In this document: one piece after another, positions 48,957 to 64,000 of the stretch
Numbering within the stretch: position 1 is the first letter of the stretch
Layout of the letters: the number at the start of each line of letters is the position of its first letter
Assembly (NCBI RefSeq): GCF_014203355.1
Contig: NZ_JACHIR010000001.1
Span: 3,660,038 to 3,724,037 of the forward strand
Direction: 5' to 3'
Origin: Kutzneria kofuensis
Lineage (GTDB): Bacteria; Actinomycetota; Actinomycetes; Mycobacteriales; Pseudonocardiaceae
DNA length: 64,000 nucleotides
Program-made: the position numbers and the translations under genes
The notes under the pieces: model-generated
Database searches by the model: none
What the model was told of the DNA's origin: nothing
Seen by the model: only the letters and a program-made list of their open reading frames with translations

Positions 48957-50162
48957 TCAGGCTGCTGCGCTGCCTGGTCGTGGCACGTGGGGCTGGAACG
49001 TTCGTTCGTCGCGGACGAGCGCCCACACGACGTTGAGGCGTCGACGCGCCAGGGCCAGTACGGCCTGCTTGTGGACCTTGCCCTCGTGCCGTTTGCGTTC
49101 GTAGAAGGCCTTCGACTCCGGACACCGGACGATGGCGTACTGCGCGGACAGGTAGAACGCCCGCAGCAGCCGCCGGTTGTAGCGGCGCGGACGGCGCAGG
49201 TTGCCCTGAACCCGGCCGGAGTCACGCGGGACCGGCGCCAGGCCGGCGACACCGGCCAGCCGGTCAACGCTGCCGAACGCGGCCGGATCCCCGCCGGTCA
49301 GAGCGATGATCTCGGCCCCGAGCAACGGCCCGATGCCGGGCATGCTCAGGATCACGGCGGCGTGCCGGTGCTGGCGAAACCGGCCCTCGATCAGGGCGTC
49401 GGTCTCCGCGATCTCCTCATCCAGGGCCATCACCCCCTTGGCCAGCCGCGCCGTCATGGCCGCGGCAGTGGACTGTCCGGGAACGGCGGTGAGCTGGGCC
49501 CGGGCTGCGGCGATCGCGGTCGCGGCGATTGCGGCGCCGTTGCGGACCTTGCGGGCCCGCAGCCAGGTGGCCAGCTCGGCCTGGCCGCACTCCCGCAGCG
49601 CGGCGGGAGTCTGAAAGCCGGTCAACAGCACCAGCGCGGCTTTGGAGGAGCTGTAGTCAAAGGCTCGTTCCAGGGCGGGGAAGTACTCCAGGATCTGGGC
49701 GCGCAGCCGGTTGATCGCCCTCGTGCGGTCGGCGGTCAGGTCGTAGCGGCGGGCGGTCAGGATCCGCAGGTCCACGGCGATCTCGTCGCCGGCGGTCATC
49801 GGGTGCAGGTCGCGGCGCATGCGGGCCTGGTCGGCGATGATGAACGCGTCCTTGGCGTCACTTTTGCCCGATCCTCGGTAGCCGGCCGAGGCGTGGTGGA
49901 CGGTGCGGCCGGGGATGTAGAGCAGGGCCTGGTCGTGGTTGACCAACAGGGCGATCAGCAGCGCGCCGCCGCCGGCGTTGAGATCGATCGCCCACAGCAC
50001 GTCGGGCGACAGCGCTCGGACATCGGCGATCAGCTCCAGCAGTTCGGCCTCGTTGTTGGGCACTCGCCGGGACAGGATCTTGTCGCCCTCGGCGTTGATC
50101 ACCACGCAGTGGTGGTGGGCTTTGCCCGCGTCCACACCGGCCCACAGTTGCGGCACGGCCAC
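48957..50162 (-). CDS. IS110-family transposase (DEDD recombinase)
   Basis: It encodes 401 aa, full length. The RuvC-like N-terminus has Asp in WAGVDAGKAHHHC, Asp in WAIDLNAGGG, and KSDAKDAFIIADQAR. The C-terminal Tnp_20 part has SMPGIGPLLGAEIIALTGGDPAAFGSVDRLAGVAGLAP and a Ser-containing RDSGRVQGN. These proteins recombine DNA guided by an RNA from the element's non-coding end. The start is at 50162 (GTG/ATG region after GGGAGG). Confidence 0.87.
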   Translation of the reverse strand: MAVPQLWAGVDAGKAHHHCVVINAEGDKILSRRVPNNEAELLELIADVRALSPDVLWAIDLNAGGGALLIALLVNHDQALLYIPGRTVHHASAGYRGSGKSDAKDAFIIADQARMRRDLHPMTAGDEIAVDLRILTARRYDLTADRTRAINRLRAQILEYFPALERAFDYSSSKAALVLLTGFQTPAALRECGQAELATWLRARKVRNGAAIAATAIAAARAQLTAVPGQSTAAAMTARLAKGVMALDEEIAETDALIEGRFRQHRHAAVILSMPGIGPLLGAEIIALTGGDPAAFGSVDRLAGVAGLAPVPRDSGRVQGNLRRPRRYNRRLLRAFYLSAQYAIVRCPESKAFYERKRHEGKVHKQAVLALARRRLNVVWALVRDERTFQPHVPRPGSAAA

Positions 50163-54290: not shown

Positions 54291-54294
<4 letters not shown>

Positions 54295-55187
54295 TCGATC
54301 CTCGACGGCTGCGGGTGCTGCGGGCGCTGGCCGACCACGGCACGGTGACCGCGGCGGGGCGGGCGCTGCACCTGACGGCGTCCGCCGTGTCGCAGCAGTT
54401 GGCGGCGCTGGAGGCGGAGACCGGGCAGCAGTTGCTGCGGCGCAAGGGCCGGCGGGTGTGGCTGACGCCCGCCGGCGAGTTGCTGGTCGTGCACGCCAAC
54501 GCCGTCGCGGCCGAGCTGGAACGGGCCGAGGCCACGCTGGCGTCGTTCGCCGCCGGCGTGCGCGGCCCGGTCCGGCTGGCCAGCTTCGCCTCGGCGATCA
54601 CGCAGGTGGTGGCCCCGGCCGTGGCCGAGCTGCGGGCGAACGCGCCGGACGTGACGCTGCTCGTGCAGGACGCCGAGGGGCACGCCAGCGTTCCGCTGCT
54701 GCTGGACGGTGAGATCGACGTCGCCATCACCGAGGAGTACCGGCCCGCGCCGCAAACCGACGACCGCCGGCTGAAGCGTTTTCCCCTGTACGCCGAGCCT
54801 TTCGACGTTGTGCTGCCGGAGGACCACCGCCTGGCGGATGAGTCCGAAGTGGACGTTAGTGCGCTCGGCGGCGAGGACTGGATCGCTCCGCTGCCCGGAA
54901 ACCCTTGCCGCGACGTGCTTTTGCTCGCCTGTTCCGACGCACGGATCCGCCACACGTCCGACGACTTCAGCGCCGTCGTCGCGCTGGTCGCCGCCGGCGC
55001 GGGCGTGGCTTTGGTGCCGCGCAACGCCTTCACGCGGACACCCGGCGCGGTTGCCGTCCCCGTCAAGGGGAACCAGTCGTTGCGCCGGGTGTTCGCCGCC
55101 GTTCGCAAGGGAAGCGAGGACCACCCGCTGATCCGGCTGGTCCTCGCCGCCCTGGTGCGCGGTCAGGGAGTCGCGACCACCCCGTAG
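54291..55187 (+). CDS. LysR-family regulator of the tdh-kbl operon
   Basis: It encodes 298 aa. The N-terminal helix-turn-helix ([37 protein letters not shown]) is followed by a LysR substrate domain. It is the third gene of the tdh-kbl transcript with a 4-bp overlap, an unusual place for a LysR regulator, which is usually divergent. Control of its own operon is inferred. Its 3' end overlaps the convergent RCC1 gene by 25 bp. Confidence 0.85.
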
Positions 55188-57469
55188 CCGCCGTCGCCGA
55201 TGGTGGTGACACCGGTGATGATCCCGCTACCCGGGAAGTCGATGTCGTACACCGTGCTGTTGGTGCTCAGCACCCGGTCGGGGTGGCCGGCGGCGATCTC
55301 CCTGATCGGGCCGATCTTGGGGATCTCCGCGCCGGCCATGCTGTTGGTGTACATCTGACCGTCGTTCCACTGCCAGGGCGTGCCGTCGGCCAGGATGCCC
55401 CGGGCGCCGTCCACGTCGGTGACATCGCGCTGCACGTGAGCCACCGTGCCGGTCGCGGCCGGCAGCGAGACCGGCCCGTCCTTCTCGTCGTTCAGGCCCA
55501 ACGCGCCCCAGCGCCACACGCTGCCGTCGCTCTTGCAGAGCACGACCCGGGAGCCGAGTTCGTCACACCCGAACAGGCCGAAGACCTGCACCGGCGCCGC
55601 GGAGGCGCAGGACGGGTCGGCCCCCGGGGTGGGCCCAGCCGTCCCGAAGCACTTGCCCAGGTCGGCGTGGGTCCCGATGCCCAGTGCGCCTCGGGAGTTG
55701 TCACCCCAGCTCCACACCTTGCCGTCACCAGTCATCGCGTACCGCGCGACGCCGGCGCTGTTGCTGGTCGACCGGGACACGGCGATCGCCTTCACGTTGT
55801 CCAGGTTCGGCACCTGCACCGGCGAGCCGGCGATCAGGTTGCCGTCCGTGGACCCGGTGCCGAGCTGCCAGGTGGAGTTCACGCCCCACGTGTAGACGTG
55901 GCCATCGGCGCTGAGCGCCATCTCGTCGGCGATGGCGACGATGTTGCTCAGCCCCGGAATCCGCACCGGCAACGCCGAGTAGAACGCGGGCGGCGGATAG
56001 GCGTACGGGTAGCCGGTCGGCCCCTCGGCGTGGCCGAACTTGCCGATGCCCAGCTGTCCCTCGCCGTTCTCGCCCCACGACCACACGGTGCCGTCGGACT
56101 TGAGGGCGTAGACGACCTTCCCGTCCGAGCCGCCGACGATCGACTTCACGTCGCTGAGCCCGTACGTGAACGCCGGCCCGGACTTGTAGTTGGCGTCGGT
56201 CGTCCCGTTGCCGAACTGGCCCGAGTCGTTCTGCTCGATGCCGAACGCGCAGTTCGCGGTGCACGCGTGAAGCGACGGCGCGAAGTAGCCGGCCAGGTCG
56301 ACGATCATGTCCAGCTGCCCGGACAGGTTGTTGAGGTCGATCGCCCGATCGCCGCTGACCGGCACGATGGCCAGGTTCGCCGACGTCTGCCAGGGCACCA
56401 GGTTCAGGTTGCTGACGCCGGGCTGCGGCGCGCTGTCGGCCCAGGCCGTGACCACAGTGGACTGGCTGACGTTGGTGCCGGTCAGGTTGGTCACCGCGGC
56501 CGTCGCTCCGGCCGGCAGCCAGCCACTCAGGTCGAGCTTGCGGGTCTGCCCCGACAGGATCGGGTGGTTGGGACCGCCGTACATGTCCCGGGTTTCCAGC
56601 ACCCGCGCCGGGTACAGCGAGTAGAAGGCCTGGGTGGACGTCGGCGAGTAGTAGCCGGCCAGGTCCGCGATCAGGTCGACCGACCAGTAGGAGTTGGTCA
56701 GCTTGACCTTCCGGTCCGGGCTCAGCTGCACGGTGACGAGATTGGGCGTGTTCTTGCCGGCCACCAGGTTCAGGTTGGACGCGTCCGGCCGGCTCTGGTC
56801 GGCCGGATAGGCCGTCACGAAGGTCGGGCCGGTCACGTTGGTGGCGGTCAGGTTGAACACCGCGGCCGTCGCACCCGCGGGCACCTTCGAGGACAGGTCG
56901 AGGGTGACGGTGCCGCCCGCGCCGAGCGGCGAGGAGTTGCGGGTGTCCACCATGCGCTGCGGGGTCAGCGGCGTGTACTTCGAACCGGTGCCCGGTGCGT
57001 AGTAGCCGGCCAGGTCGACGATCGCGTCGACGGCGAAGGGGCCGGCGCCGACCCAGATGCCCTTGTGGTCGCCGTGTCCCATCGCGACGGTCACCAGGTT
57101 GGCCCGGGTCTCGCCGCTGTCGAGGTTGAGGCTGGACGTGCTCGGATCGCCTTGGTCGCCCGGTCCGGTGGCCAGGAAGGTCGCGTCGTCCGGGTTGGTG
57201 CCGGTCAGGTTGAACACCACCGCGGTGGCGCTGTCCGGCACGAGACCCGCCGGGATGTCGACGTGCCGGCTGGAGTACTTCGGGATCTTGCTGCTGTTCC
57301 GGCTGTCGAAGATCCGGGTCGGCGGCAACGGCGTGAAGACCGCGCCCGAGTCGGGCAGCGCACCGGTGTCCTGAGTGGACAACGGCGTCGCCGCCTGTGC
57401 CGGCGCGACCACGGACAGTGCCACGGCGGCGGCCGTGGTGAACAGGATGGTGATTCTGCGAAGTGACAC
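55163..57469 (-). CDS. Exported DTR-repeat / RCC1-propeller protein A
   Basis: It encodes 768 aa from the GTG at 57469, set by GAGG 5 bases upstream. A Sec signal peptide (ITILFTTAAAVALSVVAPAQA) is followed by three tandem repeats of about 110 aa, each running from a PxRxxDTR-type start to DLAGYY/F. A Cys-x3-Cys hinge (ACTANC) leads to an RCC1-like region with repeated ALKSDGTVWSWGENGEGQLG-type blades. Such proteins are surface or secreted; no catalytic domain is seen. It is the last of four paralogues on this strand and appears intact. Confidence 0.8.
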   Translation of the reverse strand: MSLRRITILFTTAAAVALSVVAPAQAATPLSTQDTGALPDSGAVFTPLPPTRIFDSRNSSKIPKYSSRHVDIPAGLVPDSATAVVFNLTGTNPDDATFLATGPGDQGDPSTSSLNLDSGETRANLVTVAMGHGDHKGIWVGAGPFAVDAIVDLAGYYAPGTGSKYTPLTPQRMVDTRNSSPLGAGGTVTLDLSSKVPAGATAAVFNLTATNVTGPTFVTAYPADQSRPDASNLNLVAGKNTPNLVTVQLSPDRKVKLTNSYWSVDLIADLAGYYSPTSTQAFYSLYPARVLETRDMYGGPNHPILSGQTRKLDLSGWLPAGATAAVTNLTGTNVSQSTVVTAWADSAPQPGVSNLNLVPWQTSANLAIVPVSGDRAIDLNNLSGQLDMIVDLAGYFAPSLHACTANCAFGIEQNDSGQFGNGTTDANYKSGPAFTYGLSDVKSIVGGSDGKVVYALKSDGTVWSWGENGEGQLGIGKFGHAEGPTGYPYAYPPPAFYSALPVRIPGLSNIVAIADEMALSADGHVYTWGVNSTWQLGTGSTDGNLIAGSPVQVPNLDNVKAIAVSRSTSNSAGVARYAMTGDGKVWSWGDNSRGALGIGTHADLGKCFGTAGPTPGADPSCASAAPVQVFGLFGCDELGSRVVLCKSDGSVWRWGALGLNDEKDGPVSLPAATGTVAHVQRDVTDVDGARGILADGTPWQWNDGQMYTNSMAGAEIPKIGPIREIAAGHPDRVLSTNSTVYDIDFPGSGIITGVTTIGDGGYGVVATP

Positions 57470-57562
57470 ACGTACCTCATTCGCCGTGCGGGTGGTGGCG
57501 GGACCACCGTCGGCCCCGCCACTACCCGCCTCATCGCCAGCCGATACCGGCATCGTTACTGG

Positions 57563-59834
57563 TCAGCCGCGCACCGCGGCACCGGAGTCGCCGATGGACA
57601 CGATGCCCGCCAACGACTCGATCTTCCTGGGCGTCGGGACGGTCTCGAACCGGTTGCCGTCGCCGAACTCGCCGGTGGAGGAGTGGCCCCACGCCCGGAC
57701 CGTGCCGTCCGAGCGCAGCGCAAAGCCGGACGTCACACCGCCGGCCAGCTGCGTCACGGAGTCCAGGCCCTGAATCTGTTCAGGATTCGCGCGCTCGCAG
57801 TCGGTCTGGCTGCACCCCGAGCCGTCGCCGAGCATGCTGTCGGCCTCGTAGCCCCACGCCCACACGGTGCCGTCGGACTTGAGGCATAGTTGGCGTAGAC
57901 CGGGAAGGCGGTCGTCCGTGCCACCGCGGCCACCCCGGTCAGACCCGGCACCGCCGCCGGGCGATGTTCTGGTCGGAGGAGTCCTGACGATGGCCCCACT
58001 GCCAGACCGCGCCGTCGGCCGTGAGCACGAGCCCGCCGGCGATCGCCTTGACCGTCGGCAATCCGGGCACCTTGACCGGAACGGACGATCCGCGACCGCT
58101 CGTGCCGGTGCCCAACTGGCCGATGGTGTTGTCGCCCCAGACCCAGACGCTGCCGTCGGATTTGAGGGCGTAGCCGTTGCGCTCGTCGCCGACGATCGCG
58201 GTCACGTGGCTCAGAGCGTCGATGCGCTCCGGTGTCTTGGCGATGTAGCTCTCGTCCGACTTGCCAGAGCCGAGCCGGCCGTTGGTGTTGCGACCCCAGG
58301 CGTACACGTTGCCGAAGTTGTCGAGCGCCAAGCCGTGCGAGATGGCCACGATCTTCACACTGGACAGGATCTGCACCCGCTCCGGGATCGGGTTGTAGTA
58401 CCCCTGCGCCGTAGCCTCGGAGCCGACGCTGTCCGGCGTGTCGGCCCGGCCGGCCAGGCCGTTGCCGAGCTGACCGGTGGTGTTGTCGCCCCATGCGTAG
58501 ACCCGGCCATCCGAGGTCAGCGCGTAGGTCACGCCCTCATACGCGGTCACCTGCGTGACATCGCTGAGGCCGTAGACCGTAGTGGAGCCGTGCGCGATCC
58601 ACCGGTCGGTCGTGCCGTCGCCGAGCGAGCCGGTGTTGTTGTAGCCGGCGGTGACCGCGCACTTCGCCGTGCAGGTGGGGAAACTCGGCGCGAAGTAACC
58701 GGAGATGTCGACGATCGCGTCAACCTGGCCGGCCAGGTTGCCGATCTCGAGGCCGTGGCTCGGGCTGAGCGCCACTACCGCGGCGTTGGCCGAGATCTGT
58801 CCCTCTTCCAGGTTGAGCACGCTGGTGTCGGGTTCCTGGGTGAGCGACGACCACACCTTCAGGAAGGTCGACTCGGTCACGTTCGTGCCCGTCAGGTTGA
58901 GCACAATGCTGGTCGACCGATCGGGCAGCCAGCCCCGCAAAGTCATGTCGTGCACGCCGCCTTCGGTGATCGGCTCACGCGGATTCCCGTTGGCGTCCCT
59001 GGTGTCCAGCGCGCGGAACGGGATCAGCGGGTAGAACCGGCTGCTGGCGTCCGGCGCGTAGTAGCCGGCGAGGTCGGCGATCAGGTCGACCCGGCCGAAG
59101 GCGTTGGTGAGATCGACCTTGCGGTCCGCGCCGAGCTTCACCGTGACCAGGTTCGGCGTGTTCTTGCCGGCGGCCAGGTTCAGCGTCGAGGCATCCGGTT
59201 TCGCCTGTCCCGTCGGATATGCCGTGACGAAGGTGTCCCGGATGACGTTGGTGCCGGTCAGGTTGAACACCGCGGCCGTCGCGCCGGCCGGCACCGACGA
59301 CGACAGATCGAGAGTGACAGTCCCTTGTGGACCGACGGGACCGCTGTTCCTGGTGTCCAGCACGCGTTTTCCGGACACCGGCTGGTAGTTCGAGCCGTGC
59401 GCCGAGTAGTAGCCCTCGACGTCGACGACCAGGTTCAGGCCGGCCGGGCCGGTGCGCAGTTCGAGCCGGCCCTTGGCGCTGGTCGCGGTGACCAGATTGG
59501 CCCTGGTCTCGCCGCCGGCCAGGTTGAGACTGGAGGTCGAGTTGAAGACGTCGCCGACGGAGACCCAGGTCGAGCCGTCCGTGTCGGTACCGGTCAGGTT
59601 GAACACCACCGCGGTGGCGTCAGCCGGCACCAGATCGGTCGGCGCCGGCACGAAGACGTCGCCGTGGGCAGCGATCTTGTGGCCGGTGGTGCGGCTGTCG
59701 AAGATCCGGGTCGGGTTGACCGACGTGTAGCCCAGGCCGGCCGGCGGCTGGGCCTCGGCGGCCTGCGCGGCCGGCGTGGTCAGACACAGTGTGGCAACGG
59801 CTGCCGCCGTCAACGTCACGAGCAAGCGTGACAT
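57563..59834 (-). pseudogene. DTR-repeat / RCC1 protein B, broken by two single-base deletions
   Basis: The ATG at 59834 follows AGGGGG and opens a frame with signal peptide (LLVTLTAAAVATLCLTTPAAQA), three DTR repeats, hinge PTCTAKC and RCC1 blades. It stops at 57939 after SSDQNIARRRCRV. The homologous protein continues in a second frame (VPGLTGVAAVARTTAFPVYANY) and then, from about 57887, in a third (LKSDGTVWAWGYEADSM and on to the stop at 57563). Each shift needs one missing base, near 57960 and near 57887. The intact protein would be about 756 aa. Real decay and sequencing error in GC-rich tracts are both possible. Confidence 0.8.
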
Positions 59835-59945
59835 GCAAATCCCCCTTGCACTACACGGAAAGTAGGCCATGGAGGTAACGCCGCCGCGCCCCGCCGCGGT
59901 TGCCTGCCGAAGGGGCAACTTCGGTGCGGGACGCGGCGGTCGTGA

Positions 59946-62177
59946 TCAGGAGTTGGCCACGTAGGCGCCACCGGTGCCGAGATAGGTGGCCCCGGAGACG
60001 CCGGCAATCAGTGCGGGCGTTTCACGGTCGCCCTCCGACAGCCGGCCGTCGCCCAGCGCGCCACCATTGCCATTGCCCCAGGCATAGACGGCGCCGTCGA
60101 ACATCAGCGCGTAACCGGTGGAGAAGTTGCGGTTGGAGATGGCGCGCACGCCGGAGAGGTTGCCCACCCGGCTCGACGCCACCCGGCCGTATTCGTCGAA
60201 CTGCCAGACGGTGCTGTCCTTCTTCAGCACGTACGGACCCGAGACGGTCGACGCGTCGGTCAGACCCGCGACCTGAACGGGCACGAACGTGTTGTCGTCG
60301 AAGCCCCAGTGCCACACCGAGCCGTCCGACTTCACCGCACTGTGGACGGAGATCGACACCACGTCGGTCATCCCCGACACCTGGACCGCCGTCGGGTCCG
60401 CGCACCCGGGCCGGGACGCGTTCCAATCGGTGCCGTCGAAGCAGTTGTCGAAGCCGCCGTGCTCGCCGTCGCCGAGCTCGTTGTGGAAGTTGGAACCCCA
60501 GCTCCACACCGAGTGGTCGGCCTTGAGCGCGACGTGGCCCGCGATGGCGACGATGTCTTTGAGCCCCTTGACCTGCACCGCAGACCGGCTGAACAGGGAC
60601 GTGTCGAGGTCGCCGGTGCCGAGCGCGTACCCCCGGTTCGAACCCCACGACCAGACCGTGCCGTCGGACTTCAGCGCCACGTGGTCGCCGATGACCTTGA
60701 CGTCGGTCAGACCCGGTACCTGGGTCGGCATGGCGGTGACGTATCTCGGCACATCAGGGGTGTCGCGGTCGAGGATGACCGGCGTCTCCCCCACCACGTC
60801 AGCGCCCCAGGTCCACACCGTGCCATCCTCGGCCAGCGCGGTGTAGCCGTCGTCGTACCGGTTGCCCTCGATCGCCTTAACGGCAGGCAGACCGTAGACG
60901 CCGGCCGGCTTGCGCGGCTGCGACGAGGTGGTGCCGTCACCGGCCTGGCCGAACGTGTTGTCGCCGAACACATGCGCGCAGTACTGCTGGCACGACGGGA
61001 CCGACGGCGCGAAGTAGCCGGCCAGGTCGATCACCACGTCCTGACTGCCGGCCAGGTTGAACACGAGCATCTTGGTCTCGGGGCTGAGCGCGACCACCGC
61101 CGCGTTCGACGAGGTCTGGCCGGGAACCAGGTTCAGGATGCTCGACGCCGGCCGGGTCTCGTTCTCCGGATAGGCGGTCAGGAACGTGTTCTCCGTGCCG
61201 AACGTGCCGGTCAGGTTGAACACCGCCGACTTCGCCGTCGGCGGCAGCCACTTGCCCAGGTCGAACAGCAGGTTCTCGTTGGCGCCGAACGGGATGCGCG
61301 ACTCCCAGCCGTTGCGGGTGCGGGTGTCCATCACCCGGATCGACGCCATCGGGTAGAAGGACTGGGCCGAGTCCGGCGAGTAGTAGCCGGCCAGGTCCGC
61401 GATCAGGTCCACCGAGTAGTAGGCGTTGGCCAGCGTCACCCGTCGGTCCGGGCCGACCGGCACGGTGACCAGGTTCGGCGTGTTCCGGCCGGGCGCCAGG
61501 TTGAGGTTGGACGCGCCCGGCTTCGGCTGCCCCGCCTGGTAGGCGGTGACGAACGTCGACCCGGTCACGTTGGTGCCGGTCAGGTTGAAGGTCGCGGCCG
61601 TCGCCCCCGCCGGCACCTGTGAGGACAGGTCGAGCGTGACCGTGCCGCCGGGCCCGACCGGCGCGGAGTCGCGCGTGTCCAGCATCCGGTGCGGCGACAC
61701 CGGCGTGAACTTCGAGCCGTGGCCGGGCGCGTAGTAGCCCTCGACGTCGACCACGACGTCCACGGCCCACGGGCCGGCCCAGATGCGCACTCCCGGGTAC
61801 TGGCCGGGAGTGATCGCCGCGGTGACCAGGTTGGCCCGGACCTCGCCCTGGGCCAGGTTCACGTTGGACGTGCTCGGCTCGTAGTCCTGCTCAGCCGGCC
61901 CCACGGACAGGTACGTCGCGTTGTCGGGGGCGATGCCGGTCAGGTTGAACACCACCGCGGTGGCGTCCGACGGGACCACGCCGTTGAGGGTGATGGGCAC
62001 GAAGCCCCGCGCCGGAATCCGCCCGTGGCCTCGGCTGTCGTACACCCGGGTGGGCGCGATGGCCGTGTACTGACTGCCCGAGGGCGGCTGGGCGGTGGCA
62101 GCCTGCGCCACGACCGGCACGGCCAGCGCCGCGGTGGTGGTCAGCGCGGCTAGCACCGCAATCCGTTTCAGTGCCAC
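59946..62177 (-). CDS. Exported DTR-repeat / RCC1-propeller protein C
   Basis: It encodes 743 aa from a GTG at 62177. The Shine-Dalgarno GGAG lies inside the last codons of remnant D, so translation may once have been coupled. The signal peptide (IAVLAALTTTAALAVPVVAQA) precedes three DTR repeats (TRVYDSRG, HRMLDTRDS, IRVMDTRTR), the hinge PSCQQYC, and RCC1 blades (LKSDGTVWSWGSNRGYALG, FDGAVYAWGNGNGGALGDG). It is intact and paralogous to A. The role is unknown; a binding surface on the cell exterior is inferred. Confidence 0.8.
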   Translation of the reverse strand: MALKRIAVLAALTTTAALAVPVVAQAATAQPPSGSQYTAIAPTRVYDSRGHGRIPARGFVPITLNGVVPSDATAVVFNLTGIAPDNATYLSVGPAEQDYEPSTSNVNLAQGEVRANLVTAAITPGQYPGVRIWAGPWAVDVVVDVEGYYAPGHGSKFTPVSPHRMLDTRDSAPVGPGGTVTLDLSSQVPAGATAATFNLTGTNVTGSTFVTAYQAGQPKPGASNLNLAPGRNTPNLVTVPVGPDRRVTLANAYYSVDLIADLAGYYSPDSAQSFYPMASIRVMDTRTRNGWESRIPFGANENLLFDLGKWLPPTAKSAVFNLTGTFGTENTFLTAYPENETRPASSILNLVPGQTSSNAAVVALSPETKMLVFNLAGSQDVVIDLAGYFAPSVPSCQQYCAHVFGDNTFGQAGDGTTSSQPRKPAGVYGLPAVKAIEGNRYDDGYTALAEDGTVWTWGADVVGETPVILDRDTPDVPRYVTAMPTQVPGLTDVKVIGDHVALKSDGTVWSWGSNRGYALGTGDLDTSLFSRSAVQVKGLKDIVAIAGHVALKADHSVWSWGSNFHNELGDGEHGGFDNCFDGTDWNASRPGCADPTAVQVSGMTDVVSISVHSAVKSDGSVWHWGFDDNTFVPVQVAGLTDASTVSGPYVLKKDSTVWQFDEYGRVASSRVGNLSGVRAISNRNFSTGYALMFDGAVYAWGNGNGGALGDGRLSEGDRETPALIAGVSGATYLGTGGAYVANS

Positions 62178-62181
62178 GGTT

Positions 62182-62900
62182 TCAGTCTCCAATGATCGCA
62201 AAGCCGTTGGTACCCAGGGCAGCCACACCGCTCACGCCCGGAATCCGCACCGGCGTAGGCTCTTGCTGAAGTACTCGCCGTCGCCGAGCTGGCCGTCCTG
62301 GCGCCAGCGGCGATCATCCGCACGTCGGCCAGGTCCTTGCCCCGAACCGGATTGTCCACATGGGACGACGGTGTCGAGCTGTCACCCAGTTCGCCGTAGG
62401 AGCCATGGCCCCAAGCTCACACGTGTGGTCCGACCGCAGCACGTGGTTGGCGCCGTTCGCGGCCACCGTCACCGCGTCGTTCACGCCCGGCACCCGCACC
62501 GGGGCGTTGTCCTGGTTCGGGTATTCGCGCCGGCCCCATCGCCACACGGAGCCGTCGGATGGCTCGGGGTCTCCCCGGCGCGCAGGTTCACGGTGGGCGT
62601 CGCCGTGAAGACGCCGCCGGACTGCTGCACGCTGCGGAACGTCGGGCCGTCCGGGTTCGTCCCGGCCACGTTGACCAGCACCGCGACCGCGTCGTCGGAC
62701 ACCGGCGGCACCGTGAAGCTGACGTTGCCGCGCGCCGCGATCCGGTCTCCCGGGACCCGCGTGTCGTGCAGCCGAGTCGGGCTCACTGCCGTGAACGACA
62801 GCCCCGACGACACCTGCGGCGCTGCCTGCGCCACCGGTGCAAGTACTGAAGATGCCGCGGCGACCGCGACCACGAGCACGCCGATCCCGGCGAGCGACAT
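62182..62900 (-). pseudogene. DTR-repeat / RCC1 protein D, remnant with large internal deletion
   Basis: The ATG at 62900 follows GGGGGAG. A signal peptide (IGVLVVAVAAASSVLAPVAQA) and most of one DTR repeat (TRLHDTRVPGDR ... VNLRAGETP) are present. The frame then breaks near 62565, and the sequence continues in another frame with an RCC1 blade (SDGSVWRWGRREYPNQDNAPV, PGVNDAVTVAANGANHVLRSD). Further shifts lead to the family-typical end VRIPGVSGVAALGTNGFAI with stop at 62182. Repeats two and three and most of the propeller, about 500 residues, are missing. Confidence 0.75.
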
Positions 62901-63029
62901 GACTCCCCCTGCGATGGACCCTCCCCGACCCGCCGCGAAGTGTCGCACGGGGACGATGCCCCCACCAGCGTTTCCGCAGGGCAACCGAACAGAACCGAAC
63001 GCGATGCTGAGGATGTGGGGGGCGTGGGA

Positions 63030-63068: not shown

Positions 63069-63121
63069 AACGAAAGGCCGGCGACCCGGCCCGCGCTCTC
63101 CGCGGGCACACCTGGCCCGGA

Positions 63122-63193
63122 GCCGGCGGCGGGACTTGAACCCGCAACCCCTCGCTTACAAGGCGAGTGCTCTGCCAATTGAGCTACGCCGGC
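63122..63193 (-). tRNA. tRNA-Thr (TGT anticodon)
   Basis: The 72-nt minus-strand sequence folds fully: 7-bp acceptor stem (GCCGGCG / CGCCGGC), a 4-bp D stem (GCTC/GAGC), a 5-bp anticodon stem (CTCGC/GCGAG) with loop CTTGTAA, and a 5-bp T stem (GCGGG/CCCGC) with TTCAAGT. The anticodon TGT reads the threonine codon ACA. CCA is not encoded. Confidence 0.95.
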
Positions 63194-63482
63194 ATGGCCG
63201 CCTCGACAGCCGCGGCTAATCGTAAAGGCCTCACGCTGGCATCACCTGCGTCTTCTGGTCTGCTCAGGGTAGAACCGGATTCCTCCTTCCGGAGGTCGAC
63301 TCAGCCTCCCGGGTGGCGCTCACCGGCGCTGACCAGGGCAGAAGCGGCGGGCACGGCCGGTGGTCGGCGTCCGCCGATCGGGGTAACCCGGCGGAGCGTG
63401 TCGGAGACCACGTCGCCGCCCTTGCAACGGTTGGGTGAATGGGGCCGATCCTGCGTACGGACGATCGAGGAGGGAACGGGTA

Positions 63483-64000
63483 GTGCGGCACACCCCGGGA
63501 GTGCGGGCGAGCTTCTGGCGACGGCGGCGGGTGCCGGTCCCGGCGCCCCAGCGGCAGCCCGCGGAAGTGGGCCCCGAGCTGCCGTCGGACGCCACCGTGA
63601 ACATGGTGCTTGATCTCGCGCTGCGGATCGGCGAGGTGCAGTTGGCCAGTGGCGCGGCGGCCGCTGACGTGGCGTCGACGCTGCTGGCGGTGACCGCGGC
63701 GTACGGACTGCCCCGCTGCGAGGTGGATGTGACGTTCATCTCGATCTCCGTTTGCTGCCACCGCGGCACGGCCGCGTCGCCGGTCATGTCGATGCGCGTG
63801 GTCCGCTCCCGTGGTCTCGACTACACGCGGCTGGCGGGCCTGGAGGCGTTGGTCCGGCGGGTCATCGCCGGCCGGACGACGGCCGAGGAGGCGTCGGCCG
63901 AGCTGGACGCGATCAGCAGCGCCAAGCACCCGTATCCGCGCTGGCTGGCCACATTGGCGTGGGCGGCGATGGCGGCGTCGGTGGCGCTGCTGCTCGGCGG
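63483..64000 (+). CDS. ThrE-family threonine/serine exporter, partial
   Basis: The frame is open from the GTG at 63483 (GAGGAGGG 8 bases upstream) to the window edge, 172 codons. After a basic, Pro-rich tail the ThrE (DUF1212) domain begins: VLDLALRIGEVQLASGAAAADVASTLLAV, YGLPRCEVDVTFISISV, and a first membrane helix (LATLAWAAMAASVALLLGG) at the edge. The family exports threonine and serine or related solutes. The remaining helices lie outside the window. Confidence 0.82.
   Translation, partial: MRHTPGVRASFWRRRRVPVPAPQRQPAEVGPELPSDATVNMVLDLALRIGEVQLASGAAAADVASTLLAVTAAYGLPRCEVDVTFISISVCCHRGTAASPVMSMRVVRSRGLDYTRLAGLEALVRRVIAGRTTAEEASAELDAISSAKHPYPRWLATLAWAAMAASVALLLG

Follow-up and report, generated by a model that had tools for sequence, protein, structure and literature searches.

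Introduction

In bee-gut Bifidobacterium, exported surface proteins with RCC1 repeats are encoded in tandem clusters whose number varies between strains, and the available part of that report explains the clusters by duplication and diversifying selection (PMC4449606). According to the same text, these proteins combine Flg_new repeats, two to four RCC1 domains and an LPxTG anchor. In the accessible part of PMC3482391, RCC1 occurs solely within a virus name. Trimeric heads are known from other systems. The tip of Bd2133 from Bdellovibrio bacteriovorus is described as a beta-sandwich whose homotrimers contain an interface pocket (PMC10769870). Single-chain trimers of C1q and adiponectin are engineered, and the single-chain C1q head, three protomers joined by linkers of 3 amino acids (aa), retained the trimer structure, as far as the accessible text of PMC4774423 goes. 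Here we describe an array of four genes (A to D) in a stretch of 64,000 nucleotides from Kutzneria kofuensis (contig NZ_JACHIR010000001.1, positions 3,660,038 to 3,724,037; hereafter the window). The array encodes exported proteins in which a signal peptide is followed by three ~113-aa repeats, which we call DTR repeats, and an RCC1 propeller. The triple of DTR repeats is probably a natural single-chain trimer, because the repeats obey a count rule, single-repeat relatives are associated with stalks, one repeat has a predicted fold of the right type, and triplication seems to have happened repeatedly. The proteins most likely act in recognition or adhesion. The bifidobacterial clusters give a precedent for the array, although the window proteins differ from them in having a DTR triple and one propeller; for the DTR triple we found no precedent.

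DTR repeats occur once or three times per protein

Three repeats in each full-length copy had been proposed by an earlier reading of the sequence (the first-pass annotation), and a hidden Markov model (HMM) trained on the nine repeats that A, B and C carry found three in each of these proteins and one in D. The same number prevails in the wider family. We pooled complete frames, defined by stop codons on both sides within the fetched stretch, after removing identical ones. Among the 213 frames, 176 had three repeats, 36 had one, one had two, and none had four or more. The raw tally was 176, 36 and three, after five scraps had been excluded manually. A frame break in one triple (L179) accounts for two of the three raw two-repeat frames, which are its halves and were set aside as well. 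A further frame with an open 5' end (L141) had two weak repeats. In the best 80 related loci plus the window genome, three repeats were found in 106 of 113 frames, some loci overlapping, and the apparent '4' in this set is a 7-bit match. Since the query was itself a triple, the set is biased to three, and the count was therefore retested with a single-repeat profile on all listed frames of two genomes (G132 and G051) and all eight listed frames of a third (G036), that is, on listed matches rather than on whole genomes. Among the matches listed, G132 had 37 complete triples, 19 complete singles and no other complete frame; one frame was fetched in part. At least 150 DTR repeats were counted in G132 (contig of 4,830,181 bp) and at least 118 in G051 (4,775,416 bp), two genomes from the same family of the phylum. 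A search with one repeat had been proposed by the first-pass annotation. The module occurs far beyond RCC1 proteins, and the one-or-three rule holds in the wider family.

Average identity was 52-58% among the repeats of one protein and 36-40% between proteins at equivalent positions, and therefore a single ancient triplication for the whole family is not supported. In 57 non-redundant triples, 71 of the 171 repeats had their best match in their own protein. Moreover, a repeat pair at least 85% identical in DNA was found in 21 of 183 triples (complete or not), and in five complete triples (L207, L235, L236, L237 and L096) all three pairs were at least 94% identical. Three was reached repeatedly; slippage free of constraint should yield twos, fours and fives, yet one two was found. 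Gene conversion inside an old triple would give the same within-protein similarity.

Stalks on single-repeat proteins

Among the first 33 single-repeat proteins, a collagen-like stretch (at least six Gly-X-Y triplets) was found in 12 and an HxHDD stretch in 10, starting within about 10 residues behind the repeat. The Pfam Collagen model matched 10 of the 33. Three singles added later (L139, L140 and L157) had neither feature, giving 22 of 36 singles with a collagen-like or HxHDD stretch versus none of 176 complete triples (Fisher 9e-21), and 12 of 36 versus 0 of 176 for the collagen-like stretch alone (1e-10); these p values overstate independence because proteins within one genome are related. 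In G132 alone, 18 of 19 singles had one of the two stretches versus 0 of 37 triples, and the nineteenth (L181:2967-5921, plus strand, 985 aa) carries BclA_C at its far end, with its DTR repeat close to the N-terminus. With HxHDD counted as a presumed trimeriser, 23 of the 36 singles carry collagen, HxHDD or BclA_C. Five Gly-X-Y triplets, below the threshold, were found in two triples, and two incomplete triples also had Gly-rich runs, with 6 triplets in L254 and 10 in L238, the latter at a distance of about 900 residues. One bacterial protein (L202:1750-4536, minus strand) has one DTR repeat and then about 175 Gly-X-Y triplets. L139 and L140 are frames of 254-255 aa with one repeat behind an apparent (by eye) twin-arginine leader and no stalk.

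The relatives with one repeat resemble collagen-stalked BclA-like proteins, with collagen beside the repeat in 12 of them and BclA_C in one. In A, B and C the triple lies directly behind the leader, and the Pfam matches of these proteins were RCC1-type only, with no stalk-type model among them. Unlike what is typical of the C1q/TNF superfamily, A, B and C and all 176 complete triples lack a collagen or similar trimerising stalk next to the domain.

Predicted fold and the proposed single-chain trimer

Structure models were made for the whole triple of C and for its repeat 2 alone. The model of repeat 2 had a predicted local distance difference test (pLDDT) score of 98.2 and eight strands by DSSP, and one DTR repeat is thus predicted to be an eight-stranded beta-sandwich. 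In number of strands it is like C1q and TNF heads. When the AlphaFold2 (AF2) model of one repeat was searched against the PDB with Foldseek, all three matches with E <0.001 were the Bd2133 tip (MAT superfamily): 8ok3 with template modelling (TM) scores of 0.74/0.68 and a root-mean-square deviation (rmsd) of 3.0, and 8ond chains with 0.68/0.25 and 0.68/0.24. Identity was 13-14%, and there is no sequence match between the tip and the DTR repeat. Bd2133 places three chains on a beta-helix stalk, whereas the window proteins lack a stalk and fuse the three repeats into a single chain. Rank 11 of the search was 7dou, a trimeric phage cement protein. The triple, for which the first-pass annotation had suggested a structure prediction, was predicted as one fixed body (pLDDT 91.9, predicted TM score (pTM) 0.88). 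In a search of viral models with the triple, the fourth row was a protein annotated as BclA C-terminal domain (TM 0.52, rmsd 9.1). The linkers between repeats, by profile ends, have 5-15 residues in 308 of 318 cases. Tandem protomers with short linkers are also the design of the engineered single-chain C1q, which differs in being man-made and in having three unlike protomers.

Both ends of the sandwich were more variable than the strands (1.23 and 1.21 bits versus 0.87), and since the ends are equally variable no binding face stands out; loop variability as a guide to a binding face was rejected. Two repeat columns (66 and 99) have a cysteine consensus across the family and covary strongly between the repeats of a protein, which suggests from the alignment an optional disulphide. 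Cysteine is absent from those of A, B and C.

Several results weigh against the single-chain trimer. A Foldseek search of the whole triple against the PDB returned unlike beta-sandwich proteins at TM ~0.2, and the engineered single-chain C1q was absent from the best 50 matches. Covariation of the closing pair (repeat 3 with repeat 1) resembled controls, and a directional covariation comparison ran against closure, a comparison that is confounded because the compared blocks share columns. Closure of repeat 3 on repeat 1, trimer packing of the triple and ligand binding by the head are what we infer. In G051 alone the stalk link was weak (2 of 8 singles versus 0 of 23 triples, p 0.06), and 13 of the 36 singles have no recognised trimeriser. 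The HxHDD stretch is a presumed trimeric stalk, which our literature searches failed to confirm. Furthermore, one protein (L248, 917 aa, from G104) is a true two-repeat protein. Its repeats are nearly identical, and a third identical copy was possibly lost by assembly collapse.

If the triple is a single-chain trimer, the DTR repeat would be a sandwich of the type used in homotrimeric fibre tips and C1q/TNF-like heads. The window proteins carry three copies in one chain behind the signal peptide, joined by short linkers; these would pack as a pseudo-threefold head, and the RCC1 propeller follows through a Cys-containing hinge. One-repeat relatives would reach the same head as homotrimers held together by collagen or other stalks. 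Fusion would free the three protomers to differ, with repeat 2 kept while repeats 1 and 3 diverge, and the exported products of one operon-like array would present several different heads. In 13 array proteins repeat 2 was the most conserved (mean entropy 0.66 versus 1.17 and 1.25), as expected if three fused protomers have different tasks. The adhesion or recognition role is a weaker proposal than the trimer itself and is suggested by the fold class, the partner domains and the bifidobacterial precedent.

The array genes

The array lies on the minus strand at 55163-62984, with four co-oriented genes in the order D, C, B, A from a tRNA-Thr toward a LysR-type regulator gene. Open reading frames, the repeat HMM and Pfam bear out the first-pass description of four adjacent paralogues with leader, repeats and RCC1-like propeller, two of them intact and two decayed. 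The array itself also stood where that annotation had placed it (55163..62900), although its upper end reaches 62984.

Gene A (55163..57553) is open and encodes 796 aa with a leader, a DTR triple (56282..57337; repeats 56999-57337, 56648-56980 and 56282-56626) and an RCC1 propeller. Gene C (59946..62228) has the same plan, is also open and encodes 760 aa, with its triple at 61011..62072 (repeats 61731-62072, 61380-61712 and 61011-61361). Gene B (57939..59918, 659 aa) has a triple (58692..59729; repeats 59406-59729, 59058-59390 and 58692-59039) and the first part of a propeller, within which the frame is lost; the remainder of the propeller is at 57566..57865 in a different frame and has an RCC1 match in Pfam. 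Gene D is a remnant (62481..62984) that has kept its leader and part of one repeat (62565-62798). At 62229..62480, fragments of D that resemble a propeller were seen by eye, spread over more than one frame, and one piece of them scanned against Pfam gave no match. DNA repeats with the same period as the protein repeats were detected directly in the array.

Pfam matched RCC1 in A, B and C and also in the out-of-frame remainder of B. PF00415 was above its cut-off in A, B and C, and PF25390 reached its own cut-off in B only. Unlike the RCC1 propellers described by these models, those of the window are exported and fused to an unlisted module. The signal peptides were called by eye, from a hydrophobic stretch with an AQA end, and the true start codons are uncertain. 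No LPxTG motif was noticed on reading proteins A and C. A gap of 27 bp separates the open frames of B and C, and about 10 bp lie between the end of the B remainder and the A frame; the array looks like an operon, though the true starts may sit further in.

The upstream border of the array is the tRNA-Thr gene (tgt; 63119..63193, minus strand), followed by the start of a ThrE family exporter gene (63435..63998, plus strand). The downstream border is the LysR-type regulator gene (54291..55187, plus strand), which is adjoined by Kbl-like and Tdh-like genes. An IS110-family transposase gene (48957-50162, minus strand) is about 5 kb away from the array.

Distribution and partner domains

A search of the same genome with C found eight further repeat proteins, each with exactly three repeats. 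Three of them (L028, L029 and L030) have an RCC1 part, over which the alignment extends; L031 is a triple alone, and L032-L035 have a triple beside other sequence. Since the company of these triples is so varied, the unit is the triple and not the DTR/RCC1 pair. Beyond this genome, at least 533 related stretches were confirmed. The best 80 were kept and are mostly from Actinomycetota, with some from metagenome bins labelled Dormiibacterota, Chloroflexi and Melainabacteria. At E 1e-12, 12 of 119 genomes sampled from the phylum had a match. Within the genus, 4 of 7 Kutzneria genomes had a match, including that of K. kofuensis, and six genomes from six other genera of the family had none. One triple matched 16 plasmid records, and in each of these a single place aligned over at least 80% of the triple. 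Three such hits (H12-H14), on plasmids of Paenarthrobacter and Curtobacterium, have an RHS repeat-associated annotation and a distant DTR triple of about 29% identity. Phage origin was rejected, as one triple queried against 50,697 phage records gave no match.

The DTR repeat is a mobile module of exported bacterial proteins. We surveyed partners in 48 triple proteins hand-picked for variety from 159, 11 of them from this genome, and the tally covers 25 of 31 families. Pfam partners were RCC1 (11), PKD_4 (6), Beta_helix (5), TIG (4), pro-kumamolisin (3), subtilase (2), amidase (2), M23 (1) and C39 (1). Exported enzymes and surface-type proteins are frequent among them, as would suit a module for binding or placement. 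Alternatively, the triple might be a targeting or anchoring module for the cell wall or matrix, perhaps trimer-shaped too, with the RCC1 propeller as the working part. Partners as unlike as RCC1, PKD_4, proteases and amidases fit this alternative, as do the C-terminal position of the triple in 97 of the 159 proteins and the faster variation of the propeller in all four array orthologue pairs described below. We regard it as a possible explanation, short of an even chance.

The locus in other Kutzneria genomes and its rate of evolution

As the first-pass annotation had expected, copy number varies among relatives, and the locus holds 0, 1, 3, 4 or 6 copies. Tdh-, Kbl- and LysR-like neighbours occur together in five of six other genomes of the genus, the sixth (G003) having no LysR match at threshold, and a tRNA-Thr is beside the locus in three of the five other Kutzneria genomes examined. 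Next to the LysR gene, Kutzneria sp. 744 (G002) has six copies, all open, with the tRNA/ThrE side not found in the 10 kb fetched beyond the array. Kutzneria sp. CA-103260 (G006) has three copies, K. chonburiensis SMC256T (G005) one, and the window four. The site is empty in G001, with about 100 bp between tRNA-Thr and the LysR stop. In G004, a genome without any repeat match, the LysR gene is present and the tRNA is absent within the 19 kb fetched.

The triple tree and the propeller tree agree in pairing A with copy 6 and B with copy 5 of Kutzneria sp. 744. The trees also support two more 744/CA-103260 pairs; two window copies alone are nowhere united by a supported fork, and gene C sits in an unresolved fork. 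Since the partners of A and B belong to a different Kutzneria species, the two are old paralogues, and a recent origin within this genome of the tandem expansion that the first-pass annotation had described was not borne out for them.

That annotation had suggested fast turnover, and these genes do evolve faster than their neighbours, as judged by the ratio of nonsynonymous to synonymous substitution rates (dN/dS). In four orthologous array pairs it was 0.28-0.54 for the triple and 0.42-0.63 for the propeller, which varied faster than the triple in 4 of 4 pairs, versus 0.09-0.25 for orthologues of flanking genes. Paralogue pairs within the window gave 0.62-0.82 for the triple and 0.89-0.98 for the propeller. 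For non-array orthologues, the triple gave 0.15 and 0.19 and the one usable propeller 0.42. Thus the propeller evolves fast both inside and outside the array, and the triple mainly inside it. In one non-array DTR/RCC1 gene of Kutzneria sp. 744 (L040:4923-7148, plus strand), the propeller goes out of frame shortly after the triple, similar to gene B; this break may be a sequencing error or real.

These rates bear on the idea, raised by the first-pass annotation, that the genes encode surface proteins on which phage, host or kin select for diversity. Ratios above those of flanking genes, variable copy number and, within the accessible text, the strain-variable tandem clusters of bifidobacterial RCC1 surface proteins (PMC4449606) speak for it. 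However, orthologue ratios remain below 1, some of the speed is shared by genes outside the array, as the 0.42 of the non-array propeller indicates, and relaxed constraint in redundant copies fits equally. We consider such selection doubtful as the explanation.

Relation to known families

The first-pass annotation had called the DTR-repeat/RCC1 protein undescribed, and the libraries searched contain no known module that corresponds to the repeat. The DTR repeats of the array had no match at cut-off level in Pfam, NCBIfam or PHROGs, with two weak sub-cut-off matches on D. A 96-row repeat profile had no match among PDB sequences at E up to 10, and an 11-row profile had one, an antibody chain at E 0.13. 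On these Pfam, NCBIfam, PHROGs and PDB sequence searches a known family was rejected. Pfam had no C1q, TNF or BclA_C match for the repeats in A-D. The literature searched gave no description of the DTR repeat, most subscription papers being outside reach.

Three independent sandwiches resembling carbohydrate-binding modules (CBMs) could also stand in a row for avidity or length, the number three being inherited and not structural. Weaker fold matches of one repeat include CBM22 and a porphyran-binding CBM, a Foldseek search with the whole triple returns tandem CBM and jelly-roll proteins at low TM, and covariation gives no closure signal. On the other side, repeats come as one or three and near-identical triples still halt at three, single-repeat proteins have stalks, and the triple has a pTM of 0.88. 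Moreover, no CBM model in Pfam matches the repeats of A-D; a known CBM with a defined ligand was one of the outcomes that the first-pass annotation had named as fatal to its expansion idea. A string of CBM-like domains is therefore unlikely. That the array has lost its function in this genome and is decaying is more improbable still. Although two of four copies are broken and the site is empty in one Kutzneria relative, all four array orthologue pairs have a dN/dS below 1 (0.28-0.63) and Kutzneria sp. 744 keeps six open copies.

A proposed large family in two forms

Returning to the single-chain trimer, we lean towards a general picture in which DTR proteins form a large unnamed secreted family with two interchangeable forms, a stalked single repeat and exactly three fused repeats. 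Homotrimers would have turned into single-chain trimers repeatedly, or the copies would be continually homogenised, with a halt at three. Symmetry would set the count, and arrays would let fused protomers diverge into asymmetric heads. Single-chain trimers of C1q and adiponectin were made by engineering; in this family nature has apparently made the same fusion many times, with the stalked singles as built-in controls. The family offers a way to test whether symmetry dictates how many repeats a protein has, and it suggests a structure for many exported proteins with a repeat that is outside all libraries searched.

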